Positions 44 to 40,239 of a DNA stretch of 64,000 nucleotides are shown here, in pieces. The translations under genes were made by a program, and so were the position numbers. Origin of the DNA: Atriophallophorus winterbourni. Lineage: Eukaryota > Platyhelminthes > Trematoda > Plagiorchiida > Microphallidae. The notes under the pieces were generated by a model. The model searched no databases, had not been told where the DNA came from, and worked only from the letters and a program-made list of their open reading frames with translations. The DNA lies in contig JACCGJ010000269.1 in the NCBI GenBank assembly GCA_013407085.1, forward strand, positions 248,001-312,000, in the 5' to 3' direction. The first letter of the stretch is position 1. Each line of letters begins with the position of its first letter.

Positions 44-3000
44 GTGCGTAGCGCTATATCCCCGTCTAGGTTTAGTCTCTTATTTGTTCAATGTTTACTC
101 CCCTCAAACTATTAATCATACGAATCTCTTGCATTTACCAACATGTGATCACCGTGTATGTTGTTCACACTTTCGGACCATCACAAACCAAACACTTCAC
201 GTACACAGCTGACTTGGATATAGATATATCATCCTCTAACAAATTCTTTTTTCCTATGGACTGTACTGTATGTTGTGTCCACCGTTTGTTGTGCGTGTGC
301 AACTTGCTTGGTGAGGTCGATCAATCCGTTTTCGTACGTAATAATATTGTTTTATCTATGCTACAACACGGAAGCATCTACCCGGCTAAACGTTTGATTT
401 GCTTTGAGGTTACACCATCACTAATTATACAAATATAGCTTGCATGACTGGGTTGATCGACTTCGGTTTCTTCACCATACCCGGCTGTATGAGTGGATAG
501 CAATTATTGCGGTCCGAGACCCGTTCCACCTTTTTATTACTTCACCTTTGTACTAACGTGATCGTCAGCCGGGTCATGTAAAAATAACAGTGGTTTTCCC
601 TTTTTGCTACCACATTTAAAACTAAATTCTCTATGCTGTTTTAGATCCAATTATTCATAAACCAAACGCGTCACTCATAATGCCGTTTTCAATAATCTAA
701 TCAACGTTCCGTGAATGCTCACAGAACACAATCCTACTGATCGGAAGCGCTTACCTCCCCCAGTGATTATAGACAAAGTTATTCTGTTAACCATGATTGA
801 AGAAGCAAACTTTGGATGTTCGATCCAGACAGTAGATCCAAGGCGACCGAACGACTTAATGGTATTGACCAGTTGCTGGAATGTCCACACCCTCGCACCT
901 GCACACATTTCTATTTCCATTTCTATTTCCCCCTCGTATCTGTCTAGGCCTGGGCAACCTGACAGTAATATCGCCCACGTGCAGTCTCTGACTGTGCGGC
1001 ACTTTGCCTGGATCAGGCTTGTGCTTTCATACATACATACCTGCACACTGCTTCCGATTTCAGGCTATTTGCCGTCACCATGCGCATACAATTTAGTTAG
1101 TTTCAATGAGCTTTAAATCGGTGGGAGAGTCGAAGGCCAAGTTTTGGTATGGTATGAAAGCACAAGCCTGATCCAGGCAAAGTGCCGCACTGTCAGAGAC
1201 CGCACGTGGCTTATCAGGTTACCCATGTATGGTATGGCATGAAAGCACAAGCCTGATCCAGGAAAAGTGCCGCACAGTCAGAGACTGCACGTGGGTAAAA
1301 TACTGTCAGGTTGCCCAGGCCTAGACAGATATGGGAAATAGGCAATAAAGATGATAGTGAGACTCCAGCGTGTTTCAGCATGCAGCTCACTACCCGTGGC
1401 CAATCAATTTAGCACGGTTTTAACCGCACAGCGCATAAGTACTGTACGATTGCACATCCGTGCCAAGTTTTACTTCGAAGCCGCTGCTGAACAGATAACA
1501 AGAGAGTAGATATAAAGATATCAAGAGAGTAGAGTTAAGTAAACCGAGTTCAGTTAAGTTAATAGAAAGAATTTGTTTTCGATGTTCTCATATCCGTTGC
1601 ACTTACACTTGCATTGCTAGTTTCGCTAGTTTCTCGGTACTATCTTTGCGTAATGCATGGGATTAATACCCAGTTATTGATGGGTTAAAGGGATGAGATG
1701 TGCACGGATGTGAAATCGTGTAGCACTTCTGTGCTTTGCTGCTAATACCGTACTAAATTGATATGCCACCGGTAGTGATCTGCATGTGAAAACACGCTGG
1801 AGCCTCACTAGGATTTCTTTCTCATATCTGTCTAGACTTGTGCAACCTGACAGTATCTTAGCACACGTGCGGTCTCTGACTGTGCGGCACTTTGCCTGGC
1901 TTGTGCTTTCATACGTACATGCATAAGGATGAGAGAGTGAGGTTACTTGTGTTAGCCCATTCCATAGGATTTCAATGATGAACTGCGAAACCTTGAAGAC
2001 CACCTGACGAATATTTACACACATCTGTTCACACCAAAACGTGTATTGTCTGTTGGTTGATGCCCGGCTATTTCTCTTCTCCCTTCTTTCTCATCTAAAC
2101 ATTATCTTTCAATTATTCCTGTGTCAACAAATTTCGGTTTTCGTCGTCATTAGCTCCTGTACTTCGGCTTCTCGTGAACCCAGTGGCAGGGAGATCTCTG
2201 TAGTTTGGTAGGTTGATTCACATTTTCTCAGTCTTACTTATTTCCAGTAAAAATATTCTTCTTTGGACTTCGAACACCACATTATCTTCCATGTGGAAAA
2301 CTGCTATGGTACACTTGGATGACATTGTTACCGGAGATTACAAAGTAAGCGATTAGGCCCAACCACGGTTCACTGCTGGGTAGTGATCTGTGTGTTCTCA
2401 GCGTCTCCTGTTTACGTTTTAATCGATCTTCTATTTTTCTCCATTACGTAAGACTTGTATTCGACTTACTTTTATTCGCTGCTTGCACAGTTTAATTCAT
2501 AAATCTTTTAAGCCTATCACATGTAATGATTGAGACACACAAAACCGTCACACAAGCCTCTAAACCGAACCACCAGGACCCATGCTTCGGCACTGATCTC
2601 ATGACGCGTGACAGTGAAAACCGCAAGGAATCTGTCATGCTGATGTCGCTCTACTCTTTCACAACACTTGCCTGAATGCATGTTTGATTCGAGGTGGAGG
2701 CACCTCATCCGAGTGTGTCGGTGCTTACTCTTCTACAGACTCAGTAGCTTTTTAGATCCACCCTTCCTCGTTTTTTTACGATTTTTAACATGTCATGGTT
2801 ATATGACAGTTAAGCACTCAGTACATGATGCTACCGGTGTAATACTGTTCATGATAATGATGCAGCTGCACTGTTATTTCTTTGGTTGACCGGAACCCCT
2901 CCTAATGTGGCGTTGCTTTCCCGATGCTCTCCACTCATTCACACGTCACTTTGATTTCTAGCCGTTCTTTTTTCATTTCCTGATTGGGTTCTCTTCAACG

Positions 3001-6000
3001 CTTTTCTGCTTCACAATAATTTGATGTTGTTTTTTGGAAATCCGCTGAGTTGTTGGTTTTTGATTGCTGGCATCGTTTCGTTCTCCTTCGCTACTCCAGT
3101 CTTTTCGTAGTACTTGTGAACTTGTGTTGTTTTGTTAAAGTTCATGCGTGGCAGCCTCTGAGGACGATCTGAACGATGAATACGCTGTTTTGTGGTAGGT
3201 TTCTCGTTCATCCGCGCCATTTACCGAATCGATTTCAGTAAAAACAAGCGATTGTGGAAAGGTGCTTCTACCGAGCAGATGACGCCAGATTCGTGGTCAG
3301 TGGTTTCCATAGATTTAGAAGATAGCCCTGGAGATTACAAGGTGGGTCTTCACATCGCTCAAGGCGAAACCCGTATCGATCATCTTTTTCGTTTGCTTTC
3401 GACGCTGAGATTCGCTGCGTGATGAACTACTTTCTTCTCCAAGTTGCAATTAATCGACTACATTTTTTACTCAAGTCGCTTAATTGTCCATTAAGACCCG
3501 GGTGCGACAATCGTATTCTCGGGATGTTGCGCGTAAAAATACACATTGAAAATTGAATCTGGTAGAATAAATTTACCGCTCGTAATCGGTTGTTGTATGA
3601 CTTCGTCCAACAAGATGATAACTAAGCTGGTTGACCAAAGTAATGTGTTGCTCACATCTCCCGCACTTACACACCACTACCGGCTTCTGGCTGTTTGCCG
3701 TCATCAGGTTGACAAAGAATCACTTTGTGATTCTTTGTTTGAACATCGTGGTTCGTTGTACGAACCCTATGTAATAGTGGCATTCAAGTATAAGCTAGTT
3801 GATAGTTATCCACACGCCTTTGCAAAATCCTTACTTTTGCCGAATTCATGTATGTCACTATAGTTCTCATTAGCAACCGATGCGCGCTTTTCCGCACATT
3901 GGTATTCGTTACCGCATGTGCTTTAACTCTCGTACCATTTCGTGATATTCGGCTGCAAATGTTGCTTATTCTAAACCCAATCGAATACAGCCTAGTGCTG
4001 GTCATCTCACCCAAGTTTGTTGTTATTAGCCTCCTCCTACCAACCGTAGATGTATCCAGCAAGCACTCAATGCTCTTATACCCCGCAGCATTTCACGTGA
4101 TTAAACAGTCCGATTCGAGAGGCACCATCTCTCCTGTGATTTGCCGATTGACAGCATCTTCACGCAGTCTGCGTGTTCTACGCTCAGCAACGGAGAGTAG
4201 TGTCTGATCTCAACCAGTTTGATGTGGACGCTTTAAATAGTGGCTCCAAAGTGAGCTGTCAAGAGCAATTTCTTTCAAAATAGTAGTTCCGATGTGAAGG
4301 CCCATCCAATATAATCGCGTTTAATTCGTTCAACTTCCAATGATTGCCAAATCGTTCTTTCTGTTTGGTTGCAATTTGCATTCGCTAGATATACAGTCGC
4401 CTTAAATCAGACACATGTGGCCTACTGAGCGATTTTCGCTCTCTCTCCCTCTCTCCTTCCTCTTTCATGTCATGTATGTCAGTCGTACATCTACTACTGC
4501 TTTCAGTGATGGCAATGACTGTCGTGATTTAACAACTCTCAATAAGTCTAGCCAAAACGGAATAATCAATATTTCACCTATTTTGATGTGACCCGCTTTT
4601 CATCAGCTTCATGTTACTTCTACATGTCAACTAGGTATCTGAACAAAATCGTATTCCTTGTGCAATGACCATTCGTATTTTCGTCTCATGATCAGTCACG
4701 GATGAAGCATGGCGCTACTAGTTTCAAGAGCTGAGGGAGTGTCAACAGCTATACGTCTACTTTTTATTCGTTAGTTATTTAGTCATCCGTCTTAACCGCA
4801 TTGACCGGCAAACCAGGCGTTGTGAATGGTCGATTTTCTCTAACCTCTATTCTCAGACACCTTTTTGCACATTTGTGCTAGGCAGGGTACATGTTACCAT
4901 CCATTGAATAAAATGCTTGTATTTTCCTGAAATTTTCCGGTACGTGTTCACACCGTCGGAGTATCTAGTTCAGTCATTTACCAATAGTACACCACTTAGA
5001 CCTGAACCATTCACTTGTCACATCGCAAACTTACACGTTACTACTGTACATCAGCCGGATCCGCATACATTGTTATAACTGCCCTTCAGGGCATTCTGTT
5101 GTTATGTTCGTTTGCGAAACGCTCGTTCGTTCTTGGTGTTCATTGAGAATTAAGCTCCACATCTCCACTAAATAGACTGCCTATAACTTCTGTTTTCGCC
5201 CACTTTGGCTGCCTTGTTTTCTTAGATAAGTATTCTTGTGTGATAACTACGACACGTAGCAGCTACCGTCTTCGTATTCTTTGTGTGATTGTGTTTGTTT
5301 CTTATCTACCTCTTCTGCGGTTTGTTATTCCACAACCAAGCCTTCGTCATTTACACCCGCCTTGTATCGCTCGTGTTCTACCAGCGTTCAAGGGCTACTG
5401 GATAGTGGCGAATTTGCCGTCACGTGGTAGGTCTCTTTCCCAATTGCTCACTTCGTTCTAAAGCAAAAACAAGCGTCTGTGGACCGCGGCTGAAGATCAG
5501 TTCAGCAACCTTGCATGGAACTCCGTTTCGATCGAGCTTCCTGTGCAATCAGGCGGCGGTGATTTCAAGGTGTGGTTTCCGAAGGCTTCTGTTGCAGTAT
5601 GGTGTTTGCATCGACATATCCTTTTGTATTAATAAAGCTGTGCAAACATTAAGCTTGGTTCGATTTCGTTCAGTTAGTGCCAATCAAAAACCAGCATTGC
5701 CGGCGATCTAGCTCGTGAAATGTGCTGAGCTTGGAACACATCCTTCTGTTTCTAAATTTACTCTGTTACTTGATGTATCGACGGGCCTGTTGTTGATCAT
5801 TCTCCGTATTTTCTATCTATCTGTCTGCCTGTATGGATCTTACGGATCTGTTTGTGGTGACTGATTCTCCCGCTTTTCTACCGGTCCGTTTTCGTTACCT
5901 CCATCGTTGTACACCGCAACGATCACACGGGCATACTTTTTATTATTCCCTCTCTGCAGCTCCTGCGTATCCGTCCAACGTACCTCTGACGGCGATACGG

Positions 6001-9000
6001 CAGTCACGTGGTATGACGTGCGCGATTATTTCATAGTTTTATTTCAGCGAGAACAAGGCCTTATTCAAATCCACTGTTTTCAATGCTAACTGGCAGGTCG
6101 CGTGGGTGGATTTACCATTTGTTCACCAGTCAGACTATAAGGTATTGATAGAAGGCAATCGAGTTTGATTTTCGGTCTAAAAAGAATTTGTTTTTTAATC
6201 GTGGCATTCACTTTGTGCGCTTTGTGATTTGAATCGCTTGCCCACATTGCAGAGCTGGTAACTTTCATGTTTGATCCAAACTAATTTGGTGAACAATCAG
6301 CTGTGCTAGAACTTCTGCTGCAGTTCAGATCTATCGTTTCCAACGGACCAACGAAATGTGGCATCATTTTAGGTCGCCTGCCTATTGTGCTCCGATCTAC
6401 CGCGTTAACCTTAATCGCATCAAGTTTTGAGAAGTAATTTGAAAGCAGATCATATGTGTGTATGCATGTGTGAAATCACAAGTCAAATGCAGGAACAGTG
6501 CCGCATACGTGAGTTAAGAAAGTGTTAGGATGACTAGGTATGAAGGCACAAGCCTGATCTAGGCAAGTACCGCACAGTCAGAGACTGCACGTGGGCGATA
6601 TTACTGACAGGTTTCCCAGGACTAGGCAGATATAAGAAATAGAGAATAAAGAGAATAGAATAGAGAATACAACTTAAATAAGATCTTCGATGTTTAGATG
6701 GGGCATCAATTGATGAAGATGCAAAACCATCCATGATTGGGATCCACGTAATCGGATATCGTTGCTTACTGTAAGAGATAGCACTCGGAATCTGTCGAAT
6801 GGCATTTTGATTGTGCGTTGGCGTGTTAAATTGAAAGGGCAACATTGATGTAAATGGTATTGCTCCGTATATTCCGAAAACATATCCGAATGCATGTTTT
6901 AACTGCGGTGGTGATACCTCCGCTTTCTTGTAATCTTTCTAAGCTCGGCACAGTCGGTTTTCCAGTCTGTGGTCTCCGCAATCCCATATCGCGGTGTCTA
7001 GTTACGCCTAAGAATATGTCTCGAAATCGTGTTCATTGCCATCTTGCAGTAAACAGTTTCTTCCAGTGTTCGCATGTTATAAATGACGTCAAACATTCGG
7101 TACTTGTTCCCGGGATAATGCTGTCTCTGATAATGGTGTTGATGCTCCCGGCATAATGCTGTCGCCAATGATGGTGATGATGACAAGGTGGAAGATGTGT
7201 TTTGACTGCAATGCCATTCACAGCGGTGGCAACAAATGTTCCCTTGTACCGGAGACAACACCTTTACTTTTTCTATTGTTTTCTCATTTCAAAATCCCAA
7301 ATCTCATTTAGACAATCGTTTGTTTGCACCATTAAAAATCAACCACTTTCTAACCTTCTGTTTTGCTTTCTGAACTTGTTACGCGTCTCGTAACATACCT
7401 TATCTGAATTAAGTGTGACATCTTCTCTTACGAAATATGCCAGTCCAAGATTCTCTTATCGTGGTTATTTTTGCCGATATTTTAACCTTGGTGGTTTTCC
7501 CATTACATGTGTACCGTTTTTAACAACACAACTTTCGGGTTGATTACAGTTACAATCATCTTGGGAAATCAGAACCCGGCCAGTCTATATGCCTACCATT
7601 TGTTTGCTCGGTTTCCTCTTTCCACATTAAAATGTTCATTCGCAACGCAATGTTTCAACACTAAATTCATGCTACCCTTTAAATCTGTTGTTTCACCCTA
7701 GGGTTTTAAATTATTACGTCAAACGGCAACGTCTTTTAACTCACATTATACCAGCATTGACATGTTGTTATAGAAGAGTACATTCTCTCATTGTGAACTA
7801 GTTTGCCAAATTTTCACCCTAGTAGTTTTGGCAACGGTTTACCATTTAATTAAGGGCTCATTTCGATCGATGGTATATTGCCAAATATTCGCCTACGCCA
7901 TTGTGAACACATTTAATCTACGTTAATTAAAACTCACTTGTTTTTCCTCATACTCTTTTCACCGTGATCATTGTAATCCCCCCAATCTGTTCTACCATTC
8001 GCTGTAGCTGTTTTTCGGTTGTGCATTCACAATTTTGCTTCGGTGTTATCTAACAACTCTACATCAGTATCCCAAAATAGATTTTCAGTACGGTACGCAA
8101 AACGCGACAGAAATGAAGACATATTCCCATAAGAGAGATCCCAACACTACAAATAGGATATTGGAATGCGATTTTGTCTGCTTAGTATTCGTAGTACATT
8201 TAGATTCATTTTCTCATCATTAACTAGACTAACTTCGCTAAATTAACCTGCTCAACTCGTTTAACCGTCCCTTACCCCGTAAGCATATTCATCGTTGGCC
8301 TTTTCTTTCTTTTTGCGTTTAGTTAATACTAGAAGGAACAATCCCAGCTGGGTATCCGGATGCGCGAATTTGCGTTGATAACATCACGTCCTATACGGAA
8401 CCATGTAGTGGTGAGTTCACCCAGAGTTTATTCACAATGCATCGTCCGTTGTTCACTCTCATCATTCTGGTCTATTGTCTTGTGACCACGTTCATGTAAT
8501 ATTTTCCCAACTCATCTACAATCTACACTCAAATCCTCTTTTTCCATACTCGATTTGCTACTCTGGCGATATAAATCCACATCGTATACCTTCAATTGCA
8601 GCGTTGGAAAAAGCTTCCAAGGTAGTGACCACTCAATGGACATGGGCCCGCTATTTCGGTATCACCTTCGTCACCGCTCTTGTTCTTGGTTTGGCCATCC
8701 CAATCTTGTTCATTATCATCCTGATTTGGGCTTGTCGCAGGCGTCACAACTCGCTGAGATCACCTTACACGGACAATAAACTCTTCTCGACAAACTTGTG
8801 GTATTACATCGGTGGAAAGGAGATTTCTGACGATCCGACCGGATTTCGTGGCAGTGCCAGTTTGGTACGTTCGAACAAATATCACGCTGCTTCCTCGGGC
8901 ACGGCTAGTTCGTCCTTGTTACACAACGGACAGCATCCGGGTGCAGATGTGATGGACCTTCCCGATGTAGTGATTCCAGGAGGTCGGGTAGTCTCCTTTA

Positions 9001-37641: not shown

Positions 37642-37646
37642 ATTTC

Positions 37647-37822
37647 TGTGATGATTGTTTGAATAACAATCAATAATAATCAATAATTCTGTAATTCAAA
37701 TTCTTATTGTTAAAGTTACATTGATTAATACATACTGTGTGATTTGAGTGAGTGTGGTTATTCTCACTTCTATTCCTGGGTTGGTTATTTCAATTCAATT
37801 CAACACAATTCAATTCATTACA
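37647..37822 (+). repeat. 5' LTR
   Basis: Starts TGTGATGATTG and ends TTCATTACA. Matches the 3' LTR except for six substitutions and the extra ACACAATTCAATTCA near the end. Preceded by ATTTC. Confidence 0.92.
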
Positions 37823-37828
37823 ATTAAC

Positions 37829-38440
37829 GTCGCGATCAGCTGTGTCGTTTTCTCACAATTTTGGATCTCTCAATATTCATGAAACCCCCATAAAAATAGA
37901 GGATTACCTGGAACGTTTTGAACTTTGGTGTCTCACCAAGGGTGAAATGCCTGATTCAATTATTACTGCGCACTTTCTTACTTCAGCAGGAGAATTTTGA
38001 AAATTTAGCATTCCCTATCCCACCTGCCAAGAAGACTTTCGATTAATTGAAATCAATTATATTAGCTCATGTCACTCCGAAAAATTTCGACATTGCTGAA
38101 CGTTCACGCTTCAATACAATGCAAAACAAGAAAACCAATCTATTCGTCAATTTAATCTGCAATTGCAAACACAAGCTTCACGTTGTGCTTTTGAAAATAA
38201 ATTATATGATCATTTGAGAGATATTTTAATTTCCGGTATCAATGAACCCGATATATATCGTCAGTTATTGATGTTGAATAATCCAACCTATGAAAATGTC
38301 AAGAGATGATGCGAACATTATGAAGATATTTCAAAAGAAATTAATCGTCAAATTAATGCTAACACTCAATCTGTTTTGATCGGAACCTCCAAATCTAAAG
38401 TTCATTCGAGCAATCGACCAGTGCGGCAAAGCGAAGCTGA
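37829..38440 (+). pseudogene. gag-like region of the LTR element (broken)
   Basis: Begins with PIKIEDYLERFELWCLTKGE (about 37890-37950), resembling the start of gypsy-type Gag (.F..WL.RFE.W). Further gag-like pieces follow in other frames: FPIPPAKKTFD, AERSRFNTMQN, RQFNLQLQTQASRCAFENKL, LRDILISGINEPDIYRQLL. At least two in-frame stops and one frameshift separate them, so no intact Gag can be made. The region is clearly more damaged than the downstream frame. Confidence 0.7.
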
Positions 38441-39955
38441 GGCGAAACCACACAGACTAAGCAAATTCGGCAAAAGCAAGTTCAATTTTCACAATCAAAG
38501 TTTGGAAAATGTGCATCTTGTGGCAAGTTATATTCTCGATTTACTTGTCAATTTCGTAATGCTAAATGTTTTAAATGTGGTAAACTTGGACATATTCAGT
38601 CAGTTTGTCGAAGTTCTAAGACATGTTATGTGCATAGTAATGATACAAAAGTCGTCAATGTTGAAAATCAAATCAGCTCACTATCATTATCAGTGTCGCC
38701 ATACACAGTGTCTCATATCCGCAAACGTATATTCAGTAGTTATTATTCCAAAGAATTTATACTTGATAAAGCAGGTGTGGAATCATTGATTTCATTGAAT
38801 GACTTGAAACATTTTGCCCCCTATGCTCAAATTCATCGATCTGACATTTCGATTCACGGCGTTACAGGACATTCTGTACCTGTTGTCGGAGTTTGCTCTA
38901 TTCCAGTCAGATATGGTACTGCCAAACCAGTTGAGTGTTCATTCATTGTCACGAAATCTGGTCCACCTATCCTTGGATTGAAATCGCTAAAGTTACTCAA
39001 TATTGACTTTTCCTTTTTGTCTACAAGTTCATTATCAAAATTTGACTCTCATGCAATAAAGGATTTAACTACTCAGTGTGCATCGCATTCCGGTGGCATG
39101 AACATAAAACCTGTTCATTCAGGAATAACTGGTGATCCTATATTTTTGGAACGTCGCCTGATTGAATATGGTCTAAGAGAACCTGTCGGAAAAGCCAAGG
39201 CTCTAATGCAGACAAACGATGATGATACCTTAACTATGCCGTTTAGCGAAAAACGAAACGTTGACTTTCATACATCCTATCATAGTATGGAGAACGCTCC
39301 CGTTACTCTGGATATTCAAACTGCATCTGGAAAGACAGTTCAACCGATTTCTAACAGTGCAATTGATCGTGCTAAAGCTCTTTTGTTTGTCGATGAAGAT
39401 TTGACTTCCCTATCAATCGACTCAAGCGCTACTCCTTTTTACACGTCCACATCCGCCCGTATCATTGATTCAAACTAAAAATCCAGTTTTCATTACCAAG
39501 AAAGTGGCTTTAAAGTTAGCAAACTTCATCATTCATCAGCTACGATTTCAAATAAATCACCGAACTCATCTCATCAAGCGCATTCAGCACTGCCTTCTAG
39601 CTCATCTAAACGATCGTCAGATAATGTACGTTTCAAAACCGCTAGAGGAAAATCCTTACTGGTACCTTTGACTACTGGCATTGAAAAAGCGAGACAATTG
39701 CTGGCAACTGTGGATGACGTTTCGGGTTTGCTGGAACCTCCGCGTGTTCAATCAATTCAACCTGCAGACACTGGTCATGCTTCTGATGAACAAGCAACAG
39801 ACTTGTCACACACTTTGTCTTCCGAGAATATTGAATCAAGTGAACCTGTCAGAGGATCGGAAAGACTGAGAAACAAACCTATTCAAGATTACAAAATTCC
39901 GAGGACGATTAGGAGATGCAGTGGATGTGATGATCGTTTGAATAACAATCAATAA
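38441..39955 (+). pseudogene. Zinc knuckle, retropepsin-like and BRC-repeat frame of the LTR element
   Basis: One reading frame, open from 38441 to a single stop TAA (39476-39478) and then open again to 39953. In order: a zinc knuckle CFKCGKLGHIQSVC (about 38568-38610) preceded by CASCGKLYSRFTC; a protease-like segment (about 38755-39000) with FILDKAGVESL where retropepsins have D(T/S)G, then ISIHGVTGHSVPVV and GPPILGLKSLKLL; a half BRC-like motif VGKAKALMQTNDDDTLT (about 39185-39235); a BRC-like repeat IQTASGKTVQPISNSAIDRA plus KALLFVDEDL (39314-39405); and a second FKTARGKSLLVPLTTGIEKA plus RQLLATVDD (39632-39715). It ends RGSERLRNKPIQDYK, typical of a Pol C-terminus, and runs into the 3' LTR. 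The protease active site is lost. BRC repeats bind RAD51 through FxxA and a following helix. Confidence 0.7.
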
Positions 39956-40086
39956 TAATCAATAATTTTGTAATTCAAATTCTTGTTGTTAAAGTTACAT
40001 TAATTAATACATACTGTGTGATTTGAGTAAGTGTGGTTATTCTCACTTCTAATCCTGGGTTGGTTATTTCAATTCAATTCATTACA
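39926..40086 (+). repeat. 3' LTR
   Basis: Starts TGTGATGATCG and ends TTCATTACA, followed by ATTTC. A weak purine-rich tract (GATTAGGAGATGCAGTGGA) precedes it. Confidence 0.92.
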
Positions 40087-40239
40087 ATTTCCTTGATCCA
40101 CCTCAAAGGATATGATTGAAATTTCCATGGAGTATTGTATGAAATTAGTGTCCTAAAGAAAATGTGGTCGTAAATGCAAAATGAATTCTGAGAAAAATTG
40201 AAATGTGAGCGAATAACAAAAAATCGGATGAGCGAACTT

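Follow-up and report, generated by a model that had tools for sequence, protein, structure and literature searches.

Positions 37642-40091 of the window, by which we mean the whole 64,000-nucleotide stretch of DNA analysed here, are occupied by an element with long terminal repeats (LTRs) and a target site duplication (TSD). Its features are as follows.

37642..37646, no strand: left TSD, ATTTC
37647..37822, + strand: 5' LTR (TGTGATG..ATTACA), 176 bp, 87-89% identical to the family-B LTRs of C11536
37823..38440, + strand: gag remnant with a broken frame in this copy; in 8 of 28 copies the frame is fully open
38564..38611, + strand: CCHC zinc knuckle (nucleocapsid), PF00098 18.9 bits against a cut-off of 20.8, homologous to P0001-P0003
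38741..39010, + strand: retropepsin-like protease, approximate limits, from alignment to P0001-P0003 and to autonomous families
39041..39189, + strand: spacer and RT leader (start of the reverse transcriptase), after which pol homology ends
39190..39833, + strand: host BRCA2 cassette, probably captured, equivalent to L061 1220-1875 (exon on C1431), 86.3% over 656 columns
39190..39240, + strand: last part of the first host BRC repeat, with helix and acidic tail
39308..39403, + strand: BRC-A, a whole repeat with I for F at the FxxA position, PF00634 16.2 bits
39476..39478, + strand: stop codon, found in the window copy only (1 of 28)
39626..39727, + strand: BRC-B, a whole repeat with FxxA, GK and helix, PF00634 13.0 bits
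39834..39958, + strand: C-terminal tail of family-B pol, extending into the 3' LTR
39926..40086, + strand: 3' LTR, 161 bp
40087..40091, no strand: right TSD, ATTTC

Direct LTRs of the TG..CA type, 95.1% identical across 164 bp, together with the 5-bp ATTTC on both sides, make this an LTR retrotransposon, as originally predicted. About 15 extra bases in the 5' LTR (37791-37805, repeated CAATTCAATTCA units) are absent from the 3' LTR. A protein search with the nucleocapsid-protease-BRC part (NC-PR-BRC; 8000 candidates scored) returned three relatives, P0001 to P0003, which match the NC-protease part of the sister copy L002 at 40 to 51%. P0001 is a protein of the fluke Echinostoma caproni, and P0003, aligning at 40%, carries a reverse transcriptase domain (PF00078), which places the element within Ty3/gypsy. 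Homology to these proteins confirms the predicted zinc knuckle, although its score lies below the Pfam cut-off. The retropepsin-like domain is likewise supported by alignment to them and to the autonomous families of the genome, but the window copy reads D-K-A at the protease motif, against D-T-G in L002. In all three relatives the match ends at the RT leader, and the cassette is absent from them. Pfam domains for RT, RNase H and integrase were not found in the four element pieces scanned, so that the element does not qualify as autonomous.

The coding sequence had been described as one continuous frame. The segment 38441-39478 and its continuation to 39955 do encode the CCHC knuckle followed by two BRC-like stretches, and a single gag-protease-BRC frame of 741 to 754 aa is open in 8 of the 28 long copies compared (L005, L008, L014, L016, L022, L024, L025 and L026), but the window copy is interrupted by its private stop at 39476-39478. 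It also lacks bases in gag and near 38497 that are present in 24 to 27 of the 28 copies. The window element belongs to a non-autonomous Ty3/gypsy family, of which it is a broken copy.

The BRC block of BRCA2 is a known binder of the DNA-repair protein RAD51. Contact of BRC repeats with RAD51 via Phe-x-x-Ala is described in PMC8219027. The residues named in the original prediction are present, BRC-B having FxxA, GK and helix, and BRC-A having I in place of F. The profile check that it had proposed gave a divided answer. In the window copy both repeats fall short of the curated PF00634 cut-off of 20.3 bits (16.2 bits, E 0.007, and 13.0 bits, E 0.073), and this copy alone would thus not prove their BRC nature, but 8 of the 10 sister pieces scanned exceed the cut-off (L002, 27.9 bits, E 1.5e-6), the two below it being L043 (19.3 bits) and L053 (15.7 bits). 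Searched with the same profile, the window's own genome (537 Mb in 15,840 contigs) gave 102 matches at E ≤10, 16 of them above cut-off (125 of 125 candidates scored), and 14 control genomes gave a match in one, below cut-off. At the FxxA position, BRC-A has I in 33 and F in 13 of 46 copies; BRC-B has F in 37 of 42 copies and A in all 42. The best PDB match of the host exon described below, and of the L032 and L002 pieces, is human BRC4 (1n0w), over TASGK and the helix, with E values of 0.76 to 1.3 that are not significant alone; with the L032 piece, BRC4 is equalled in score by three unrelated PDB chains.

Two further stretches had been read as BRC. The 'half copy' proves composite: its left part (..REPVGKA) is the RT start common to gypsy relatives, and its right part (KALM..NDDD) corresponds to the end of the first BRC repeat of the host. 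We therefore rejected it as a third whole BRC repeat, BRCA2 being confined to its right part. At 39834-39958, where the frame ends, the sequence encodes a gypsy pol C-terminus and not BRC.

Window scores below the Pfam cut-off, an RT leader in the left part of the half repeat and unrelated PDB chains scoring like BRC4 are what a chance resemblance, or an ordinary linker of a gypsy pol, might produce. We rejected this reading, which has a negligible probability, on the DNA identity of the cassette to a host exon; the spliced junction described below also speaks against it. Two of the 102 PF00634 matches fall in a 538-aa open frame on C1431, the flanks of which are unlike the element. The PF00634 score of this exon is 48.5 bits (E 5.6e-13). 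The BRCA2-helical domain (PF09169, 39.5 bits, E 6e-10) is matched by a same-strand frame 2.4 kb downstream; two other nearby frames, also scanned, gave no BRCA2 match. Given the BRC match, the flanks and the helical domain downstream, we assign the C1431 locus to the host BRCA2 gene on its sequence features, over the part seen, which reaches the end of C1431, 3.7 kb past the BRC exon. The window-type copies align to L061 1220-1875 in this exon as one block of 656 columns, with nucleotide identities of 86.3% for the window copy and 88.4% for L002. The comparison with the species' own BRCA2 thus bears out the view that a captured BRC module probably stands where the polymerase region should be, and the cassette, the RT leader excepted, is not a pol linker.

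Neither the host exon nor a cassette-plus-tail piece gave matches in the protein database, the length limits of which would hide full BRCA2 proteins. Nor was the cassette found in a second species in that database, full-length BRCA2 being outside its length limits. The host contig contains other mobile sequences: a different gypsy-like element (L059, about 2400-6800; protease D-T-G, RT and integrase in several broken frames) lies about 13 kb upstream of the BRC exon, and LINE-like reverse transcriptase frames (L060, about 2340-3440) are also found upstream of it.

A search with the part of the exon lying 3' of the window cassette gave six matches, all six candidates having been scored; one is the host itself, and five are element copies. 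In these five long copies the end of the exon is joined to the first 34 to 38 bases of the next exon, and the intron is absent. In the host, this intron of 913 bp has splice sites GTAAGT at L061 2249 and AG at 3160-3161. Since the exon-exon junction is crossed without the 913-bp intron, the source was most probably a spliced BRCA2 mRNA. The same junction led us to reject the reverse direction, in which the host BRCA2 would have gained its repeats from the element: the element copies have a spliced junction where the host has an intron, and the first BRC repeat is complete in the host and truncated in the element. We found no support for that direction and consider it hardly credible. Within the host intron (L061 2249-3161) there is an imperfect direct repeat of about 107 bp (71%), and two stretches elsewhere, in L065, resemble a repeat within this intron.

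The limits of the BRCA2 segment are shared between copies. The 3' exit from BRCA2 is identical base by base in four of the five long copies, and in L066 it is placed by the limit of the alignment. The 5' joint of the window copy recurs at an identical position in 9 of the 10 older copies displayed, L030 differing nearby. At these capture joints, host and family A have 7 to 8 bp of microhomology in common, AAAAAGC at the 5' side and AGATCAGA at the 3' side, as would be expected from template switching on packaged BRCA2 mRNA. In a tree of 43 cassette rows with the host row as root, where support is good for 15 of 40 inner branches and many forks are weak, L030, L047 and other copies with F in BRC-A are nearest to the host, and the window type lies further out. 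With a single host BRCA2 as sole outgroup, the tree by itself is compatible with two captures; the breakpoints common to the copies favour one.

The family is large. Searching the genome with the whole element gave at least 62 matches (40 of 2445 candidates scored). The BRC part is present in all 28 long copies compared, the window's own included, a set chosen by length or whole-element match and not at random; the prospect of sister copies without the motif was thus not borne out in this selection. A script detected TSDs in 16 of the 28 (L011 and L028 being ambiguous), and their LTR pairs, some of them partial, are 86 to 100% identical. Identities reaching 100%, as in L021 over 221 bp, point to recent insertion of some copies. 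At 1e-20, 55 of 56 non-host loci had a cassette match, corresponding to 46 distinct rows and 9 duplicates, with none in L046. A 25-mer from BRC-A, with up to 3 mismatches, hits 491 genome sites, one of which is the host gene, against 0 for the reversed control; these are mostly uninspected sites, of which the first 100 places were listed, the host gene among them. The cassettes of L040 and L053 are split by extra sequence of about 80 bp and about 640 bp, respectively. On C13876, C2374, C10308 and C704, and in L027, at least two element matches occur per contig, some on opposite strands, which suggests a nested or tandem arrangement.

The question then arises as to which elements supplied the backbone and the machinery. 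Full-length relatives with RT, whose existence the original prediction had proposed to check, are present in the genome: a search with P0003 gave at least 58 matches (57 of 11,566 candidates scored), and among the best 20 of the 58 the frame is open over at least 900 aa in 19 and free of stops within the matched stretch in 14. We compared short pieces of six autonomous loci, and the ends of three. In nucleotide sequence, the NC-protease region of the old copies (L031, L032, L047, L051 and L053) is 84 to 90% identical to that of family A (C681, C11606 and C562), and the same region of L002 and of the window copy is 97 to 98% and 94 to 95% identical, respectively, to that of family B (C11536 and C2066). 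At the protein level, L002 is 50% identical to C681 of family A, and the old copies 40 to 46% identical to L002. C15607 represents a third, more distant type. The ends of the elements give the same division: L002 is 96 to 98% identical to C11536 in LTR, leader and pol tail (98% over 214 bp for LTR plus leader), the window copy 87 to 89% identical to it in these parts, and L024 96 to 97% identical to C2066, the LTR only being compared, and the ends of the long copies L030 and L047 are 80 to 88% identical to family A. The cassette is therefore present in two gypsy backbones, A and B. Because the spliced long form examined sits in A, the order A then B is likely. At the presumed transfer joint, the BRCA2-derived sequence and the pol tail of B (TCTTCCGAGAATATTG and TCTTCAGAGAATACTG) match at 14 of 16 positions.

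L043 represents a third form, in which gag is fused to the cassette, NC and protease are gone and the frame is open over 396 aa. L016, L018 and L021-L028 carry a second, C2066-like LTR type on otherwise window-type elements; LTRs too thus seem to have been exchanged between families. Mobilisation in trans, as originally proposed, is indirectly supported: the genome contains autonomous elements that may act as helpers, their frames open and their LTRs nearly identical.

We propose the following history. A family-A Ty3/gypsy element would have transduced part of the spliced BRCA2 mRNA of its host, template switching in the course of reverse transcription being the most likely mechanism, and about 1.07 kb of BRCA2 cDNA would have taken the place of RT, RNase H and most of the integrase. 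This cDNA would begin inside the first BRC repeat, include two complete repeats and extend about 37 nt into the next exon, and the resulting gag-protease-BRC element would be non-autonomous. In a second recombination, with crossovers in the RT leader and the pol tail, the first 640 bp or so of the cassette would have passed to a family-B backbone. The family-B form may then have spread with the help, in trans, of autonomous gag-pol elements, as the near identity of the LTRs suggests. We put the probability of this reading, as judged from sequence comparison, at about 0.93 for the capture, the mRNA origin, the presence in two element families and the spread, a figure that does not extend to a function of the BRC part.

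Whether that part does anything for the element is a separate matter. From variants seen in at least 2 of the 28 window-family copies, omega is 0.33 [0.18-0.57] for NC-protease, 0.82 [0.58-1.26] for the cassette and 0.83 [0.44-1.92] for the two BRC motifs, with the codon frame taken from 38501; the intervals are rough, as the copies are related. Singleton and multi-copy variants did not differ in any region across 46 cassettes. Because the BRC amino acids drift almost neutrally, we think it probable that the BRC part is mainly a carried passenger without a role, and that the open frame of young copies reflects recent spread from intact sources. The F to I change in BRC-A agrees with this, as do the 15 stops counted over the 8071 codons that make up RT leader, cassette and tail. 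So do L004 and L007, which have in common a stop before BRC-B although the sequences flanking them upstream are unrelated, so that a form without BRC-B could apparently move.

Two observations go against a passenger, both on small numbers: the cassette is open in two structural forms, and cassette frameshifts are not shared between copies. Among the 46 cassettes, the indels common to several are a 12-bp loss in 44 (in three alignment placements) and a 3-bp loss in 8, both in frame, and no frameshift common to two or more copies was found; the singleton indels comprise 28 frameshifts and 2 in-frame events, the latter both in L043. Calculated by hand, the p value for frame-keeping is 0.012 if two events and all singletons are counted, and about 0.14 if the count is one event and 18 singletons. 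Alignment effects may account for at least 10 of the singleton frameshifts, namely 8 in L029 and 2 compensating ones in L003, and the 12-bp difference could stem from an insertion in the host. Frame-keeping is therefore a hint only.

The same absence of shared frameshifts would be expected of a selected effector, a Gag-PR-BRC protein that binds RAD51 or delivers it to particles or cDNA, and eases integration or blocks recombination of the cDNA. The retention of F and A in BRC-B, and L043, which keeps its cassette in an open frame though NC-PR is gone, also fit such a role. In human cells, loss of BRCA2 is reported to increase LINE-1 integration (PMC10584689), which makes an advantage for the element thinkable, no more; these data are not directly transferable to an LTR element. 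A Rad51-family exon is present in the genome (31.7 bits), but the profile is not specific, as it also matched 11 of 14 control genomes. Against an effector stand the omega of cassette and motifs, above that of NC-PR, the I for F in most BRC-A repeats, the stop of L004 and L007 and the thinness of the frame argument, and we regard it as rather unlikely. Slightly more doubtful is the wider scenario, in which the Gag-protease-BRC polyprotein would capture or recruit RAD51 in particles, the cDNA would escape recombination or reach integration sites, the module would have been passed between families because it helps, and the hundreds of BRC sites would bear on the host RAD51 pool. The mainly passive cassette remains our preferred reading.

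BRCA2 is a central guardian of genome stability. As the captured piece is its RAD51-binding block, it becomes directly testable whether mobile elements appropriate ligands of repair proteins. A BRC-bearing mobile element was not found among the matches listed from the open-licence literature (titles and starts of abstracts, subscription journals being outside its scope). Host-gene transduction by LTR elements is already known, and the fluke element is a variant of it: a donor gene, spliced cDNA and defined breakpoints are all present. Its repeats differ from human BRC4 (1n0w) by one extra residue in the turn and, in the window-type BRC-A, by I for F.

In acute transforming retroviruses (v-onc), spliced host cDNA likewise replaces genes of the element, and a helper is required; these viruses carry growth-control genes, whereas the fluke case is a retrotransposon family without one. 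TR-GAG and other gag-only non-autonomous LTR elements have retained gag, lost pol and depend on a helper in trans. Unlike TR-GAG, the fluke element retains a protease and a host cassette in one frame. In plants, 672 genes captured by LTR retrotransposons are listed for rice and 1,343 for sorghum (PMC3726574); these are likewise host genes, and the main text of that source contains no mention of 'BRCA'. The nearest precedent in the sources consulted is the maize LTR retroelement Bs1, which has taken up three host-gene segments (PMC13317346). Bs1 carries pieces of a plant ATPase, a xylan hydrolase and a glucanase, whereas the fluke element carries a piece of a DNA-repair gene, in an animal, at high copy number and in two gypsy families. 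With donor, spliced intermediate, microhomology joints, second family and spread all in one genome, it offers an unusually complete animal record of host-gene transduction by an LTR element.
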